The notes under the pieces: generated by a model
Databases searched by the model: none
Told to the model about the DNA's origin: nothing
The model's input: the letters and a program-made list of their open reading frames with translations, nothing else
Source: Phycisphaerae bacterium
GTDB lineage: Bacteria > Planctomycetota > Phycisphaerae > Phycisphaerales > Phycisphaeraceae
NCBI GenBank assembly: GCA_030425705.1
Contig: JAUHZU010000011.1
Coordinates: 62,001 to 126,000 of the forward strand
Reading direction: 5' to 3'
DNA length: 64,000 nt
Part shown: positions 18,788-27,238 of the stretch, one piece after another
How the letters are laid out: each line of letters opens with the position of its first letter
How positions within the stretch are numbered: position 1 is the stretch's first letter
Translations under genes and position numbers: made by a program

Positions 18788-20254
18788 TTACTCGGCGTCG
18801 TCCGCCTTCTTCGCGGTGGTCTTCTTCTTGCTCGTCTTCTTCTTGGTGGACTTCTTCTTCGCGGCGGGCTTCGCGTCGTCGCCGGCGACCTCGGTCACCT
18901 TGGCCTGCTCGAGGATCTTGTCCAGCGTCTTCTGCTCGCGGATCTGCAGGTAGAGCTGCTCGATCTGGCCCTGCTGCATCATCTCCTGCCGCACCTTCTC
19001 GGGACGCCGGCCGCTCTGGATCGCCATCATCGCGATGCGCCCGTTCAGCTCCTGCTCGTCCACATCGACCTCCAGGTCCTTGCTCGCCTTGTCGAGGATG
19101 AAGAACTGCTTGAGTTGCCGCTGGGCCGCCTCTTCCGATTCGGTCCGCAGTTCGGCCAGCTTCTGCTGCACCTCGTCCTCCGGCGTCCCGCGGTACATCA
19201 TGTCCATCATCTGCCGCTGCAGCACCCGCTCGGTCTGACGCGAGGAGATGCCCGCGGGCAGGTCCAGCGCCACCTTCTCGACGAGCTGGTCGCACGCCTG
19301 CTGGTACATGTCGGCCTTCTGGTTCTGCTCGGCACGCTGCTCAAGCATCGCCTTCACGCGTTCCTGCAGCTCGTCCTCGCTGCCCAGGCCCATCCGCTCG
19401 ATCAGGTCTTCCAGCGGGGCCGGCTCGATCCGGTGGATCGTCGTGACCTCCAGCTTGATCGTGATCGGCTGGTCCTTGATCTTCTCGTTCTCGTGGCTGG
19501 CCGGGCCGATCATCGAGATCGACACCTTGTCGCCGACCTTCTTGCCCGCCAGCTCCTTGCCGAGGTTCTCGACGAGGATGCCCGCGACGTGGCCCTTGTA
19601 ATCCTTGTCCTTGCCGTGCACCAGGACGTGCGCGGCAGGGAAGTGGGCGATCGTCTCGGCGTCTTCGCCCGCGTCTTTGCCTTCGAGGATCATCACGTCG
19701 ACCATCGCGTAATCGTCTTCCTCGATCTGGCCCTCGGTGATCACCTCGGGTTTGCCTGCCTGCTCGCGGGCACGGCGGACCTCGTCGGCGACCTGCTCGT
19801 CGGTCACTTCGGTGACCGTCTTATTGATCTCCAGGGTGTCGAAGGCCGGCAGCTCGACGTCCGGGGTGACCTCGACCTTAACGGTAAACGTCATGTCGCC
19901 GTCGTCGGGCAGGGCGAGGTCTTCGATGCCGTCGACCTCCGGGTCGCCCAGCACGTCCAGGCCGTTCTTCTCGATGGCGTAGGAGTACGACTCGCTGATG
20001 AGCTGGTTCTTCACGTCGTCCCGGATCGACGAGGCGAATCGCTTCTCGAGCAGCCGGCGGGGGGCGCGGCCGCGGCGGAAACCGGGGAGGACCGCGTCGG
20101 ACTGCAGCGTGCCGTAGCCCTCCTCGATCTTGTCCTTGATCCGGTCAGCCGGCACGACGATGGTCATCGCCTTACACGCGGGGCCGGCGTCCGCGATCTG
20201 GACGTCGTATTCCTGGGTCTTGTCTTCGACTGCGGTGTTGGTGTCGTCAGCCAT
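18788..20254 (-). CDS. tig: Trigger factor, ribosome-associated chaperone
   Basis: 488-residue ribosome-bound peptidyl-prolyl isomerase that shields nascent chains. The N-terminal ribosome-binding domain has PGFRRGRAPRRLLEKRF, the usual GFRxGxxP signature. A FKBP-type domain follows (about 170-260), then the helical C-terminal substrate cradle (about 270-455). The last 30 residues are a Lys-rich tail (KKKSTKKKTSKKKTTAKK), not part of the standard fold. The ATG at 20254 follows AGGAGG by nine bases, a strong ribosome binding site. A terminator separates it from the SHOCT-like gene and clpX. Confidence 0.95.
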   Translation of the reverse strand: MADDTNTAVEDKTQEYDVQIADAGPACKAMTIVVPADRIKDKIEEGYGTLQSDAVLPGFRRGRAPRRLLEKRFASSIRDDVKNQLISESYSYAIEKNGLDVLGDPEVDGIEDLALPDDGDMTFTVKVEVTPDVELPAFDTLEINKTVTEVTDEQVADEVRRAREQAGKPEVITEGQIEEDDYAMVDVMILEGKDAGEDAETIAHFPAAHVLVHGKDKDYKGHVAGILVENLGKELAGKKVGDKVSISMIGPASHENEKIKDQPITIKLEVTTIHRIEPAPLEDLIERMGLGSEDELQERVKAMLEQRAEQNQKADMYQQACDQLVEKVALDLPAGISSRQTERVLQRQMMDMMYRGTPEDEVQQKLAELRTESEEAAQRQLKQFFILDKASKDLEVDVDEQELNGRIAMMAIQSGRRPEKVRQEMMQQGQIEQLYLQIREQKTLDKILEQAKVTEVAGDDAKPAAKKKSTKKKTSKKKTTAKKADDAE

Positions 20255-20590: not shown

Positions 20591-21637
20591 ATGCCAGACG
20601 TTCGCAAACCGACTCGATCGTCACTTTGGGCGCTGGCCGCCTGCCTGGTCTGCGTCGCCTGTGCCCCGGCCGGTCAGGCCCAGGAACCCGCACCCGGCGA
20701 CACGCTGTCCGAGCGTGAACTGGCCAGGATCGACCGGACCTGGAACCGCTACTGGCGGGAGGTCGCGCCGTTCTACCTCGAGCACGAATCCAGCTTCATC
20801 TGTGTGCCCGGCTTCGACCGGCGGCTCCCCAGCAGCGCCGGGGTGACCGTTGATGACTACCGCGAGCAATCGGTCTGGGAGCAGGAATACACCGACGAAC
20901 GCGGCCGCGAACGGACCCGAACCCTGGTTAAGCCCGAGGCCGAAGCCTTTGCCGCCGTCATGACGATCCAGGCTGTCGCGCCCGGGCAGTACGGCTACAT
21001 CCATTCCGGGAACCTGGTCTCGATCGAAGACGACCGGACCGCGGTGCTCAACGCGGTATGGCTGGTAGACGCCGAAGCGGCGCGCGAAGAAAAGCAGGCC
21101 CTGAAGGCCGAGGTCCTCCGCGGCACGTTCGAGGACATCGAGGACGCGGTGCGTGACCGAGGCCGGCAGGAGCGGCGGAACCGGGGTGACGGGATCGCGC
21201 GGCGACGGGCGGCCGAGAACGAGGCGATCGACTGGGGCTTTGAGGAACGCACCAATGCCGCCACGCGGCAGCGCGACCGCGCGTTCTCGCGGTATCGCTG
21301 GACCGTCATCGGGTACCAGACCGATCGGCTGGAAACCGGCGCACGCTGGCCGGCCGGCAACGCCGCCGACGAAGGGCTGCAGCTGATCATCGTGGCGGTC
21401 GACGGCACCCAAGTGACGGCCGTCCCCGCAGCGCTGATCGGTGACGGGCTGAGTGAGCTTCAGTTCCTCGCCTGCCTCGAGCAGCGCGGCATCAGCAAGG
21501 CCCGGTTCGTGGAGATCGTCAACGAGCAGCGCGCCGCCGACCGGACCGGCTACCTGCCCGCCGTGATCTCGGCGATCGAAGGCACGGATACGACAGCCCC
21601 ATCCGAGCCCAACGACACGGTTGAACTCGCCGACTGA
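20591..21637 (+). CDS. Secreted protein of unknown function, paralogue 1 (NDTVELAD tail)
   Basis: 348-residue protein of no recognised family. A signal peptide (RKPTRSSLWALAACLVCVACAPAGQA) is followed by a conserved block RTWNRYWREVAPFYLEHESSFICVP, a helical Arg-rich centre and a conserved C-terminal block (LQLIIVAVDGTQVTAVPAAL, LSELQFLACLEQRGISKARFVEIVNEQR). It ends NDTVELAD. The next gene is a clear paralogue with the same order of blocks and the same final eight residues. The ATG at 20591 fits the signal peptide; an upstream ATG at 20513 would bury it. The pair may be one operon (90-base gap). Confidence 0.78.
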   Translation: MPDVRKPTRSSLWALAACLVCVACAPAGQAQEPAPGDTLSERELARIDRTWNRYWREVAPFYLEHESSFICVPGFDRRLPSSAGVTVDDYREQSVWEQEYTDERGRERTRTLVKPEAEAFAAVMTIQAVAPGQYGYIHSGNLVSIEDDRTAVLNAVWLVDAEAAREEKQALKAEVLRGTFEDIEDAVRDRGRQERRNRGDGIARRRAAENEAIDWGFEERTNAATRQRDRAFSRYRWTVIGYQTDRLETGARWPAGNAADEGLQLIIVAVDGTQVTAVPAALIGDGLSELQFLACLEQRGISKARFVEIVNEQRAADRTGYLPAVISAIEGTDTTAPSEPNDTVELAD

Positions 21638-21727
21638 GTAGCACTGGGACACTGTAACCGGACCTGTTGTATTGCCATCTATCGGTGGTATGCTTTGGAT
21701 GTACGGTGGACCAGCAGGAGCCGAGTA

Positions 21728-22840
21728 TTGCGAGCCGGCAAAACCAGCCTTGCTTCGATCGCCCTGCCGCTCTTCGCGGCGGGCGCAGTGGCCTTGGTGC
21801 CAGCCACGATACGCTCGGTCCCGCTATCCATCGGCGAACCCCGGCAAGCCCAGGACCGTGGCCCGCAGGCCGACCCGCGCGTTGACCGTACCTGGATCCG
21901 GGAGTGGGAGAAGTTCGCGCCTTTCTATCTTGCTTACAACGATCAGTACATCTGCTTCCCGACTTATAGCCCCGACCGACAGAGCAGCGTGGAAAAATCG
22001 GTCGAGACGTACATCCGGGAAACCGCCTACGAAGTCCGGTATCGCGATCGGCAGGGCCGGGCACAGACCTTTGTAATCTCCAAACCCGTTGAAGACGCAC
22101 AGGCAGCGCTCTGGCTGCTCCGCGACCCGCACGTCGGGGCCTACGGCTACATCAGCTGCGGCTACGTCTCGCAAATCATCAATGAGCGCGAACTCATCCT
22201 CCGGTTTGTCCGTCTCATTTTTGGCATGGAGTGGAGCGAGCTCCGGCGTCAGGAGATGCAAGAGGCCCGCGAGGCGCTGCGGGCGATGCTGATCTCTGCC
22301 CCGAACCGTAGCCGCGCTACACAGAAATCGCGCACCGTAGCTCACCCGGCCGCACGGCAGCGTAGGGACGACCTGCTTAGTGTGTCCGACGTCATCGGCG
22401 AAGCGCTGGCATACCGATTTGAGTCGCGGGATGAGGCCATCGAGTACCAACAGAGTGAGGCATTCCAGAGCCGCCACTGGCACATCATCGGGTTCAGTAC
22501 CGACAACATCGTCGCCGAAGAACTCTGGCCTCAGGGTGCCGCCTCGCTCGCGGGCCTGCACCTGGCCATCGTGGCCGTCGATGAAGAGACGATCACCGCG
22601 GTGCCTGCGGCATGGCTGGAGCGTGAACTGACCGAGCTTCAATTCCTGGAAGTCATCGAAAGCCGGGGGCTCACCAAGGCGGGCTTCGTAGACCTGGTCA
22701 ACCAAGCACGGCGGGAACACCGTCGGGATTACATCCCCGCGGTCCTCCAGGCAATGGAAGGCATTGAGGACGACCCCGCGGAAAACGACGACACCGATTC
22801 GTCCGACGGCGTCAACGACACCGTCGAACTCGCGGACTAA
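21728..22840 (+). CDS. Secreted protein of unknown function, paralogue 2 (NDTVELAD tail)
   Basis: 370-residue paralogue of the preceding gene: RTWIREWEKFAPFYLAYNDQYICFP, LHLAIVAVDEETITAVPAAWL and LTELQFLEVIESRGLTKAGFVDLVNQ align with it, and both end NDTVELAD. The proposed start is the TTG at 21728, seven bases after AGGAG; no ATG precedes the hydrophobic N-terminus (TSLASIALPLFAAGAVALV). The last residues before the tail are an acidic linker (DDPAENDDTDSSDG). No catalytic motif is recognised. Convergent with panE, whose stop overlaps its end by a few bases. Confidence 0.75.
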   Translation: MRAGKTSLASIALPLFAAGAVALVPATIRSVPLSIGEPRQAQDRGPQADPRVDRTWIREWEKFAPFYLAYNDQYICFPTYSPDRQSSVEKSVETYIRETAYEVRYRDRQGRAQTFVISKPVEDAQAALWLLRDPHVGAYGYISCGYVSQIINERELILRFVRLIFGMEWSELRRQEMQEAREALRAMLISAPNRSRATQKSRTVAHPAARQRRDDLLSVSDVIGEALAYRFESRDEAIEYQQSEAFQSRHWHIIGFSTDNIVAEELWPQGAASLAGLHLAIVAVDEETITAVPAAWLERELTELQFLEVIESRGLTKAGFVDLVNQARREHRRDYIPAVLQAMEGIEDDPAENDDTDSSDGVNDTVELAD

Positions 22841-23781
22841 CCCGTGCCTTTCGCAGCGACGCGTTGGTCCTCCAGAAACCGCAGTTGCCGATAGACCGCC
22901 TGCATAACCGGCACGCCGCAGCCCGCTGCGATCGCGGCACGCACGGGATCGCCATGGATCGCCTCGACCTCCATCGCCCGCCCCATCTGCCGGTCCACCT
23001 GCATGCTCGGGCGGTACGGGCCCATCTTCGCGGTATTGCTGAGCATCTTCTCGATGAACGGCGAGTCGATGGTGTGCCCACCACACGCTCGCGCCGCGGC
23101 CGCGACCTCCCGCATCAGTGTCTCGACCAATGCCGCAGTGTCCGTGTGAGCCATCAGTCGCTCCGTGTCTACGCCGAGTACCGCCGAGAGCCCGTTGTAG
23201 GGAACGTTCCAGACGAGCTTCTGCCACCGTGCGAGCGCGAGGTCCTCGACCGGCTCGGTCTGCACCGACGCACCGCAGAAATCGGCCGCGATCTCCGCGA
23301 TGCGCTCGGTCATGCCCGGGCTCGCATACTCACCGACCCGGATGTGGTCGAACCGCACCTGTCGGAAATGCCCCGGCCCAACACGGTTCGAGCACAGAAA
23401 GCACAGCCCGCCGACCACCCGCTCCGCGCCGACCAGCCCCGCAACATGCCGCTCAGGGCAGAGCCCGTTCTGCAGCACGAGGACCGCCCCGCCCGGCTTG
23501 ATGGCCGCGGGCAGCATGTCGGCCAGCGCCTCGCTCTGGGTTGTCTTCAGCGCGACCACCGCGACATCGCTCGGCGGCAGGTCCGCCGGATCACCGAACG
23601 CCTCGACCTCGGGCAACTCGAAATCCCCATGCATCGACGCGATACGCAGGCCATGGGCACGGACATGCTCGTAGTCCCCGCGCAGCAGGAACCGCACCGT
23701 GTGACCGGCCTGCTGCAGGCGTGCGCCGTAGTACCCGCCCAGTGCCCCGGTGCCGAGGATCGTATAGCTGCGATGCGCCAT
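22837..23781 (-). CDS. panE: 2-dehydropantoate 2-reductase family protein
   Basis: 314-residue NAD(P)-dependent ketopantoate reductase-type enzyme; in the pantothenate pathway it forms pantoate. The N-terminal Rossmann motif is ILGTGALGGYYGARLQQAG. LKTTQSEALADMLPAAIKPGGAVLVLQNGL and the C-terminal KLVWNVPYNGLSAVLG and DRQMGRAMEVEAIHGDPV segments match the ApbA/PanE family, including the Lys and Asn expected at the active site. The ATG at 23781 is chosen; upstream sequence overlaps a tRNA gene. PanE paralogues with other keto-acid substrates are common, so the exact substrate is less certain than the family. Confidence 0.85.
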   Translation of the reverse strand: MAHRSYTILGTGALGGYYGARLQQAGHTVRFLLRGDYEHVRAHGLRIASMHGDFELPEVEAFGDPADLPPSDVAVVALKTTQSEALADMLPAAIKPGGAVLVLQNGLCPERHVAGLVGAERVVGGLCFLCSNRVGPGHFRQVRFDHIRVGEYASPGMTERIAEIAADFCGASVQTEPVEDLALARWQKLVWNVPYNGLSAVLGVDTERLMAHTDTAALVETLMREVAAAARACGGHTIDSPFIEKMLSNTAKMGPYRPSMQVDRQMGRAMEVEAIHGDPVRAAIAAGCGVPVMQAVYRQLRFLEDQRVAAKGTG

Positions 23782-23846
23782 GCCCGAAGCGTAGCATCTC
23801 GTGCGTTCTGCGTGGCCGGGCTTGGCCCATGAGGCGTTGGAGAGAA

Positions 23847-23919
23847 TAGGGGTGGCAGGATTCGAACCTGCGACCAAGGGATTATGAGTCCCGTGCTCTA
23901 ACCACTGAGCTACACCCCC
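23847..23919 (-). tRNA. tRNA with CAU anticodon (Met or Ile2)
   Basis: A 73-base cloverleaf: acceptor GGGGGTG pairs with CACCCCT, with G1-U72 as a wobble; D-arm AGCTCAGTGGTTAGAGC; anticodon loop CTCATAA (CAU); T-arm GCAGGTTCGAATCCTGC; discriminator A. It lacks the three G-C pairs that mark the initiator anticodon stem, so it is elongator Met or the lysidine-modified Ile2; the GACTCATAATC context leans to Ile2 but does not settle it. No encoded CCA. It follows tRNA-Arg(CCU) by 37 bases on the same strand. Confidence 0.9.
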
Positions 23920-24078: not shown

Positions 24079-24930
24079 CTACACGACCCGGCCCGCGTGC
24101 GTGTAGAGGTTCATCCGGCCCGGTCGGAGAAACCCGACCAGCGTCTGGCCGCTCTCCTGCGCGAGTTCCACCGCGAGGGAGGACGGCGCGGACACCGCCG
24201 CGATGAGCGGGACCCCCGCGGCCAATGCTTTCTGGACGATCTCGAACGACGCCCGCCCGCTGACCATCAGCGCGTGATCGGGCCGCACCATGCCCGGCTG
24301 CCGGACCGCCCAGCCGAGCACCTTGTCGACCGCGTTGTGCCGGCCGACGTCTTCCCGGAGCACCGCGATCCGGCCGGCGGTATCGATGAGCGCTGCCGCG
24401 TGCAGCCCACCGGTCCGGCTGAAGGCCTCCTGACGCTCACGCAACGCCTCGGGCATCGCCTGTAGCACCGCGGCCGGGAATGCCGGGCCGTATGCGACGG
24501 GCGGGAAGCCGCTGCGCACGGCATCGATACTCGCCTTCCCGCAGACGCCGCAGCTCGATGAAGCAAAGACGTGCCGGGTCAGCTTCTCGAAATCGATCGT
24601 GACGTGCGCCGCGAGCGTGACGTTGAGGATGTTGCCGTCGGCCGCCCGGATACAGGGGTCGATACGCGCGATGTCCTGGCTGCTCTGGATCAGGCCCTCT
24701 GACAACAGGAAGCCGATGGCGAGTTCTTCGTCGTGCCCGGGCGTGCGCATCGTGACACTCACGGCTCGGCTGCGCACCCGGATCTCCAGCGGTTCCTCTA
24801 CCACCAATTCATCGTGATCGGCGACCGCTTGCCCGGCACGCCATCGTGTCACCGTCACGCGGCACACCTGCGGGTCGTCTGCGGCGCCGTCCAGCGATAA
24901 ACGAGATGAAGGGGCGGGCTCAGCCATCAT
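24079..24930 (-). CDS. fdhD: Formate dehydrogenase accessory sulfurtransferase FdhD
   Basis: 283-residue protein that passes sulfur to the molybdenum cofactor before its insertion into formate-dehydrogenase-type enzymes. The essential cysteine pair is C127/C130 in SSCGVCGKASID. TRTGG-type segment SRTGGLHAAAL, the REDVGRHNAVDKVLG motif and the C-terminal SGRASFEIVQKAL match the family over full length. The start (ATG at 24930 or 24927) overlaps the end of the oxidoreductase gene by about 10 bases, so the two are translationally coupled; the partner enzyme of this FdhD is therefore very likely that oxidoreductase. Confidence 0.95.
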   Translation of the reverse strand: MMAEPAPSSRLSLDGAADDPQVCRVTVTRWRAGQAVADHDELVVEEPLEIRVRSRAVSVTMRTPGHDEELAIGFLLSEGLIQSSQDIARIDPCIRAADGNILNVTLAAHVTIDFEKLTRHVFASSSCGVCGKASIDAVRSGFPPVAYGPAFPAAVLQAMPEALRERQEAFSRTGGLHAAALIDTAGRIAVLREDVGRHNAVDKVLGWAVRQPGMVRPDHALMVSGRASFEIVQKALAAGVPLIAAVSAPSSLAVELAQESGQTLVGFLRPGRMNLYTHAGRVV

Positions 24931-27238
24931 GGCGGGTCACGGTGACGGGGATGAACTTGCTCGTCGGCGTTCGGCTGCGGTCCGCGAAGCTGTTGGCGGA
25001 GACCAGCGGGTTCATCTCGGGGAAGTACCCTGCGGCGCAGCCGCGCGGGATGTCGCAGGCGACCACACGGTACCCGGAGATAGCGCGGGCCTGCCCGTCG
25101 TCGAAGTGACTCTCCATGTCGGCGAGGTCGTCGGGCTGCATCCCGCGATCGGCGATGTCCTCCGCATGCATGAACACGACCTTGCGTGTCCCGGTAATAC
25201 CCCGGTACCGGTCGTTCATGCCGTAGACCGTGGTGTTGTACTGGTCGTGCGAGCGAAGGGTCATCAGCCGGAGTTGGCCCGAGGGGAGCGAGAGGTCGGG
25301 GATCGGCGCGGGCGTGAACTGCGCCTTCCGGGACGCGGTCTTCCAGTCGTAGTCGGCGGCGCTGTTGCCCAGGTAAAATCCGCCGGGCGATTGGATCTTC
25401 TCGTTGTATCCCTCGAACAGGTCGGGGAGGCAGTCGGCGATCTTGTCGCGGATGCGGCCGTAGTCGTCGGTCAGCCAGCGCCAGTCGATCCCGCCGCCGT
25501 CGTCGCCGAGTGTCGCCACCGCCACGCCCGCGATGATGGCGGGTTCGGACATCAGTTCGGGTGAGGCCGGGGTGTTCCGTCCCATCGATGCGTGGACCTG
25601 CGACATCGAGTCCTCTACGGTCACCCGTTGGGGCCCGCTGGAGCGAAGATCGGTTTCCGTCCGGCCGAGGCAGGGGAGGATCAGCGCATCGGTGCCGACC
25701 GTGGTGTGGCTGCGGTTGAGCTTCGTGCTGACCTGCACGGTGAGTTTACACCTGCCCAGCGCGTCGGCGACGTAGCCGGTGTCGGGCGCAGCGCTCACGA
25801 AGTTCCCGCCCATACCGATGAAGACTTGCGCTTCGCCGGACGCCATCGCGTGGATCGCGCCGACCGCGTCGTAGCCCTCTTCCGTCGGCGGCTCGAACCC
25901 GAAGACGCGGCGGAGCCCGTCCATCAGCGCCGGCGGCGGCTTCTCGAAAATGCCCATCGTGCGGTCGCCCTGCACGTTGCTGTGGCCGCGCACCGGGCAA
26001 GCCCCCGCGCCGGGCCGGCCGATGTTGCCCCGCAGCAGCAGCAGGTTGACCACCATCTGGATCGTCGGCACCGCGTGCTTGTGCTGGGTCAGCCCCATCG
26101 CCCAGCAGGCGATTACCCGCTCGGCCTTCATGTAGGCGTCCGCCAACGCGACGATGTCTTCCCGGCCGACGCCGCTCTGCTCGACGATCTCGTCCCAGCC
26201 CGTCGCCGACACGTCGGCGCGGAGCGCCTCAAGCCCGACCGTGTGCGCCTCGATAAACGCGGCATCGAGCACACCTCCCGGCCCCGCATCCTCCGCCTCC
26301 AGTACGCGTTTGCACACGCCCTTGAACAGCGCCAGGTCGCCGCCGACCAGCGGCTGGAGATACATCGACGCGATCGATGTCGCGTGGTTGGTCAGCATCG
26401 CCACCGGCTTCTGCGGGTGGAGGAACCCAAGCAGCCCCGCCTCCTTCAGCGGGTTGACCGCGATGATCCGGCAGCCACGCTTCGCGGCCTTGCCCAGTTC
26501 GGTCAGCATGCGGGGGTGGTTGGTGCCCGGGTTCTGCCCGATGACGAGGATGAGGTCGGCCTGCTCGAAGTCGTGCAGCCGTACAGTGCCCTTGCCGATC
26601 CCGATCGTCTCACCGAGCGCGACGCCGCTGGACTCGTGGCACATGTTGGAACAGTCGGGCAGGTTGTTCGTCCCGAACCGGCGGACAAAGAGCTGGTACA
26701 GGAACGCCGCCTCGTTGCTCGTTCGGCCGGACGTGTAGAACACCGCGCGGTCCGGAGAATCCAGCCCGCGCAGGGTGTCGCCGACCAGCTCAAAGGCCTG
26801 CGCCCAGGAGACCGGCTCGTACTTGTCGGTCGCGCGGTTGTACCGCATCGGGTGGGTGAGCCGACCCTGTGACTCGAGCCAGTGGTCGGTCTGGGCACGC
26901 AGCTCGGTGACCGTATGCCTGGGGAAAAACTCGGGGCCGACGCGTTTGCCCGTGGCTTCCCAGGCGACGGCCTTGATCCCGTTCTCGCAAAACTCAAAGC
27001 GGGACGGGTCGTCGGGCTCGGGCCAGGCACAGCCCGGGCAGTCGAAGCCCTCGGGCTGGTTGACCTTGAGCAGGGTCTTGAGGGTGGCGGCGGTGTTGCG
27101 CTGGGCGCGGATATGTTTGAGCCCGGCACCCAGAGCGGGCCAGCCGCCGGCCTTGGTCTCGCTCTCGGTGACCTTGCCGGTCTCGGGGTGGTCGGGGGTC
27201 AGTTCGTCGGCAGGCATCAGGCGGGGCTCGCGGGGCAT
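24920..27238 (-). CDS. FdhF/YdeP-family molybdopterin oxidoreductase
   Basis: 772-residue enzyme of the molybdopterin (DMSO reductase) superfamily, YdeP branch. An N-terminal cluster-type motif CPGCAWPEP...FCENG is typical of YdeP proteins. DCSNMCHESSG (about 205-215) is the active-site region, where Cys rather than selenocysteine is found. LILVIGQNPGTNHPRML and PVRGHSNVQGDRTMGI are cofactor-binding segments, and the C-terminal domain contains LRSHDQYNTTVYGMNDRYRG. No twin-arginine signal, so it should be cytoplasmic. The substrate of most YdeP proteins is not established. It follows mobA by 15 bases and overlaps fdhD. Confidence 0.9.
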   Translation of the reverse strand: MPREPRLMPADELTPDHPETGKVTESETKAGGWPALGAGLKHIRAQRNTAATLKTLLKVNQPEGFDCPGCAWPEPDDPSRFEFCENGIKAVAWEATGKRVGPEFFPRHTVTELRAQTDHWLESQGRLTHPMRYNRATDKYEPVSWAQAFELVGDTLRGLDSPDRAVFYTSGRTSNEAAFLYQLFVRRFGTNNLPDCSNMCHESSGVALGETIGIGKGTVRLHDFEQADLILVIGQNPGTNHPRMLTELGKAAKRGCRIIAVNPLKEAGLLGFLHPQKPVAMLTNHATSIASMYLQPLVGGDLALFKGVCKRVLEAEDAGPGGVLDAAFIEAHTVGLEALRADVSATGWDEIVEQSGVGREDIVALADAYMKAERVIACWAMGLTQHKHAVPTIQMVVNLLLLRGNIGRPGAGACPVRGHSNVQGDRTMGIFEKPPPALMDGLRRVFGFEPPTEEGYDAVGAIHAMASGEAQVFIGMGGNFVSAAPDTGYVADALGRCKLTVQVSTKLNRSHTTVGTDALILPCLGRTETDLRSSGPQRVTVEDSMSQVHASMGRNTPASPELMSEPAIIAGVAVATLGDDGGGIDWRWLTDDYGRIRDKIADCLPDLFEGYNEKIQSPGGFYLGNSAADYDWKTASRKAQFTPAPIPDLSLPSGQLRLMTLRSHDQYNTTVYGMNDRYRGITGTRKVVFMHAEDIADRGMQPDDLADMESHFDDGQARAISGYRVVACDIPRGCAAGYFPEMNPLVSANSFADRSRTPTSKFIPVTVTRHDG

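Follow-up and report, generated by a model that had tools for sequence, protein, structure and literature searches.

Two tandem genes in the window (the whole stretch of 64,000 nucleotides that was analysed) encode putatively exported proteins that end in the same peptide, NDTVELAD, and its core, VELA, is invariant in all tail-bearing relatives and always stands exactly one residue before the stop codon. In our opinion, the chances are about even that we are dealing with a tethered short linear motif at the C-terminus, to which one dedicated partner binds outside the cytoplasm and which serves for docking. This reading is based on the anatomy of the proteins, since a folded domain, a disordered linker of free length and an invariant peptide fixed to the carboxylate together resemble a tethered ligand.

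The tandem genes and their common tail

The positions of both genes, their tails and their neighbors are listed in Table 1. The proteins are 38% identical across 323 columns and the longest run of identity between them is the tail itself (8 residues; the second longest has 6). Given a core identity of 34%, eight identical terminal residues have a p-value of about 2e-4. The tail codons for Thr (ACG/ACC), Val (GTT/GTC) and Ala (GCC/GCG) differ between copy 1 and copy 2, all of them synonymously, while 5/8 codons are the same. Since the same codon is used at 57 of the 121 identical residues of the whole pair, this proportion is ordinary and the DNA of the tail is not frozen. The original prediction had described the identical tails with these three synonymous differences and an acidic linker ahead of the tail of copy 2, and both descriptions are correct, including the exact coordinates: 8 of the 17 linker residues are D or E.

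Table 1 Features of the tandem locus (positions in the window)
Feature	Position	Strand	Remarks
Trigger-factor-like gene (tig), upstream neighbor	18788..20254	-	Recognized from translation; order kept in 5/5 genomes of the genus
Copy 1	20591..21637	+	348 aa; putatively exported; unannotated family; ancestral-like copy
Copy 1 flexible linker TDTTAPSEP, 9 aa	21584..21610	+	pLDDT <50 from residue 334 to the C-terminus
Copy 1 C-terminal motif NDTVELAD and stop	21611..21637	+	
Copy 2	about 21695..22840	+	381 aa from TTG at 21695 (alternative TTG at 21728); putatively exported; diverged paralogue
Copy 2 acidic linker IEDDPAENDDTDSSDGV, 17 aa	22763..22813	+	pLDDT <50, residues 358-381
Copy 2 C-terminal motif NDTVELAD and stop	22814..22840	+	Stop shares bases with the convergent gene's end
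Ketopantoate-reductase-like gene, downstream convergent neighbor	22837..23877	-	Recognized from translation; order kept in 5/5 genomes of the genus

The N-terminus of copy 1 is hydrophobic and is followed by AxA-like sites, and a hydrophobic stretch of the signal-peptide type is common to all members of the family, which suggests that the tail-bearing proteins are exported. For copy 2, both the signal peptide and the TTG start are deduced from the sequence, and the position of this start is uncertain. Its stop codon shares 3-4 bases (positions 22837-22840) with the end of the convergent gene. Further downstream, at positions 24079-27238 on the minus strand, the translations indicate an FdhD-like (formate-dehydrogenase-accessory-like) gene that adjoins a molybdopterin-oxidoreductase-like gene.

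Neither copy has a significant match in Pfam, NCBIfam, PHROGs or the PDB sequences. The C-terminal part had the look of an SHD1 domain (PF03983); this homology was rejected, since the Pfam model has no match at either gene. AlphaFold2 predicts a small barrel that is broken by long helices and followed by a helical C-terminal part, with moderate to low confidence (mean pLDDT of 66.7 for copy 1 and 57.1 for copy 2) from alignments of 6-7 sequences. Linker and tail are unstructured in the models of both copies. A Foldseek search with the model gave no match at E <0.001, and VIA-align gave Z-scores of up to 7.3, which are typical of chance. The region matched (135-280) comprises strands of a small S1/tudor-like barrel around a helical hairpin, on which no family claim is based.

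Conservation of the tail

Homologue searches within the taxonomic family, the order and the phylum and in contigs of named genomes assigned the window to the Phycisphaeraceae and yielded 37 distinct homologous proteins, 8 of them with and 29 without the tail. For the contigs of named genomes, the single-protein search gave no matches and the alignment-based search gave six loci. No further tail carriers were found in a phylum-wide sample of 392 genomes. The eight tail-bearing genes, seven of which are from one genus, belong to six genomes of two genera of the Phycisphaeraceae (Planctomycetota); five of the genomes belong to the genus of the window and one (G007) to the other genus.

All eight genes end in [N/G]xxVELA[D/E/Q]-stop. 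Next to NDTVELAD in both copies of the window, we found NESVELAD and NDNVELAD in G019, NDAVELAE in G017, NNEVELAE in both G016 and G018, and GNDVELAQ, which is preceded by Gly, in G007. In the alignment of all eight proteins, no run of fully invariant columns is as long as VELA, the runners-up covering 2 columns, and the distance from VELA to the stop is always a single residue (D, E or Q). The residues before V vary (NES, NDN, NDA, NNE and GND besides NDT), with the N being nearly invariant. Outside the tail, the proteins share only 27-51% identity with copy 2. The stretch that links the last helix to the tail is conserved neither in sequence nor in length (9-28 residues), and D, E, P, A and S are abundant in it. 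With an invariant peptide that keeps the same distance from the stop in 8/8 genes, behind a linker of variable length and predicted disorder (pLDDT <50 in both copies), these proteins show what would be expected of a tethered C-terminal linear motif.

Within the tail-bearing genes, V, E, L and A are encoded by 3, 2, 3 and 3 codon forms, respectively. This synonymous variation indicates that the constraint is on the peptide and not on the DNA. Selection on the peptide, as assumed in the original prediction, is therefore corroborated by VELA in 8/8 genes, by the varying codons and by the unconserved linker. The tail is a genuine conserved motif and not a product of chance. The identity of all eight residues between the two copies has to be seen in a more differentiated way: VELA is invariant and N nearly so, but the D and T positions vary among the relatives, so that the full identity is in part coincidental. 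The tail is kept in the orthologues; its absence there had been named in the original prediction as an observation that would refute it.

The motif is also exclusive to these genes within the genome of the window. Exact matches to VELA[D/E/H/Q]-stop were found there only at the two tandem genes, and in G019 only at their orthologues; a scan allowing up to three mismatches revealed no third perfect site in the genome of the window. Some matches in relatives were discarded: those on G016 C29 and G017 C184 are antisense to long open frames, and the one on G017 C149 reads VEFAE in a frame of 141 aa. In other genera, there are only isolated VELA-stop matches. Two of them, with 470 aa (G008) and 236 aa (G015), might represent real proteins; they are not members of this family and the N-x-x context is absent.

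Origin of the tail and history of the locus

After removal of the tail columns, a maximum-likelihood tree shows the tail-bearing proteins as a cluster (SH-aLRT 92) and the tail requires one change. Judged from this tree with its 29 tail-less relatives, the tail was gained a single time. In the best-scoring tail-less relative (G045), the stop directly follows the last helix.

All five genomes of the genus carry one or two tail genes between tig and the ketopantoate-reductase-like gene (names from translations), and two copies are present only in the genome of the window and in G019. Copy 1 is 49-61% identical to the single or first copies at the same locus in G016-G019 and, of the two copies, it is the one that is nearer to the genes of those genomes of the genus that have a single copy. 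Copy 1 has retained the ancestral position between these two neighbors. Copy 2 pairs with the second copy of G019 (51% identity). The duplication therefore precedes the split between the two genomes, and the tail was kept in both copies. This agrees with the assumption that the duplication is not recent, since G019 has orthologues of both copies. In G007, the tail gene is located elsewhere, with a Rho-like gene upstream and a NuoD-like gene downstream (from translations), so that the neighborhood of tig does not explain the tail.

The genome of the window additionally encodes two remote paralogues that share the domain and have signal peptides, at C14:158551-159249 (L003/L005) and C7:214007-215023 (L004/L006). 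One of them has a long, D/W-rich tail that ends in FFGIPLD, the other one ends in EEDDDD, and neither has VELA. Tail-less proteins from another family of the order (L098, L104 and L112) share the domain and possess repeated ends, for instance SFFEKKYGDK or ERKYGKKDG.

Possible functions of the tail

Sorting, docking and degradation had originally been proposed as functions, and docking is the one that we favor. According to this model, the domain of the exported protein would fold, while the disordered linker of variable length would keep the free C-terminal peptide, [N]-x-x-V-E-L-A-[D/E/Q]-COOH, apart from it. A single dedicated partner beyond the cytoplasm would capture this peptide, which would probably bind as an additional beta strand, with V and L alternating on one side and E on the other, and the fixed distance to the carboxylate would be part of the recognition code. 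The capture would recruit or localize the protein. We infer the existence of the partner, the strand-type binding and the outcome of docking from the anatomy and conservation of the tail. The limitation of the tail to one family points to one dedicated partner, or to the protein itself, and argues against a general sorting signal. No candidate partner emerged from the gene neighborhoods of the genus locus and of G007.

That the protein itself might be the receptor is possible, if rather doubtful. The tail would then act in cis or between the protein's own subunits, as a strand that is added to the own or a neighboring domain and controls assembly or activity. The confinement of the tail to this family would fit such a role and the alternation in V-E-L-A suits a strand. 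However, the same domain is kept in the tail-less relatives, and the tail does not dock on its own domain in either of the AlphaFold2 models, which are monomers from shallow alignments (6-7 sequences).

We consider it unlikely that the tail is a signal for a periplasmic C-terminal protease of the Prc/CtpA type, or for an adaptor, that sets the half-life of the protein or leads to trimming. The tail is indeed C-terminal, flexible and present on putatively exported proteins, and Prc, which recognizes the C-termini of proteins, degrades those that end in nonpolar residues or an SsrA tag (PMC5686067). The last residue of the tail is, however, always D, E or Q and not nonpolar, which argues mildly against such a signal, although the nonpolar L-A could be protected by an acidic last residue for as long as the latter is in place. 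Moreover, Prc-type proteases are not very specific for the ends that they read (PMC5686067), in contrast to the strict invariance of VELA and its restriction to one family.

A tail without any function, which was retained by chance among slowly changing relatives, is very improbable. The small number of sequences would allow for it, but most other positions differ among these proteins, as reflected by the low identity to copy 2, the linker is not conserved and the codons have changed synonymously.

Still less to be expected is a general C-terminal sorting signal comparable to PEP-CTERM, LPXTG or GlyGly-CTERM, which passes exported proteins to an enzyme of the envelope. A short conserved C-terminal motif on putatively exported proteins is reminiscent of such signals. 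Nevertheless, the tail is found in 1-2 genes per genome and always in the same family, while the median number of PEP-CTERM copies per genome is eight and a membrane helix is part of that signal (PMC1569441). In the genome of the window and in G019, the motif is not shared by several unrelated proteins. Neither a transmembrane helix nor a basic cluster follows the motif, both copies lack a hydrophobic stretch near the C-terminus, where the protein ends one residue past VELA, and no sorting-signal model of NCBIfam matches either copy.

The tmRNA tags of other bacteria (NDNVALAA) resemble the tail (NDNVELAD) and clpX-like and tig-like genes adjoin, but a cytoplasmic ssrA-like degron read by ClpX is the least probable of these explanations, since the tmRNA tag of the own genome, ANDNIAGRIGFAPARLAA, differs and those of four relatives are like it, ending in APARLAA, the proteins carry putative export signals, the G007 gene is away from tig and the tail has no AA-COOH end. 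The likeness to ssrA tags was rejected on account of this tag. The tmRNA tags of the genus, as predicted by ARAGORN, are long and unusual (L124 of the own genome; L120-L123 of relatives, including ANDNPIAGRIGFAPARLAA and ANESSDIAGRIGFAPARLAA) and have the constant end IAGRIGFAPARLAA.

Beyond the docking function as such, VELA[D/E]-COOH might be the code of an undescribed peptide-recognition system in the envelope of the Phycisphaeraceae, with a single dedicated receptor and a tail that arose once and was kept on a diverging, lineage-specific family of exported proteins. We put this forward as a tentative suggestion that is rather unlikely to hold. C-terminal linear motifs as a kind are well known; descriptions of this motif, this family or a reader were not found in Pfam, NCBIfam, PHROGs or the PDB sequences, and among the matches listed in the literature search, those for VELAD were unrelated. 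With this tail, an anonymous planctomycete protein family gains a precise, testable handle in the form of five residues that predict a partner.

Comparison with known systems

The PEP-CTERM and GlyGly-CTERM sorting signals (PMC1569441, PMC3237569) resemble the VELA tail in being short motifs at the C-terminus of bacterial proteins that are exported. The substrates of Prc (PMC5686067) likewise have a C-terminal peptide that is read in the periplasm, but the end of the VELA tail is acidic and not nonpolar. The ssrA tag is a C-terminal peptide as well; it is read in the cytoplasm, and the tag of the genus itself shows no sequence relation to the VELA tail.

The EEVD-COOH tails of Hsp70 and Hsp90 are read by the carboxylate clamps of TPR domains. 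Common to these and the VELA tail is that a flexible acidic tail leads to an acidic residue at the C-terminus, the distance to which is fixed, whereas the EEVD tails act in the eukaryotic cytosol, consist of other residues and the reader of the VELA tail is putative. In the bacterial single-stranded DNA-binding protein (SSB), a folded domain is followed by an acidic disordered linker of free length and by invariant last residues that dock partners. SSB is cytoplasmic, has a hydrophobic Phe end and many known partners, and its tip is not related in sequence to the VELA tail, but it shares with the VELA proteins the arrangement of a domain, a disordered linker of free length and an invariant end.
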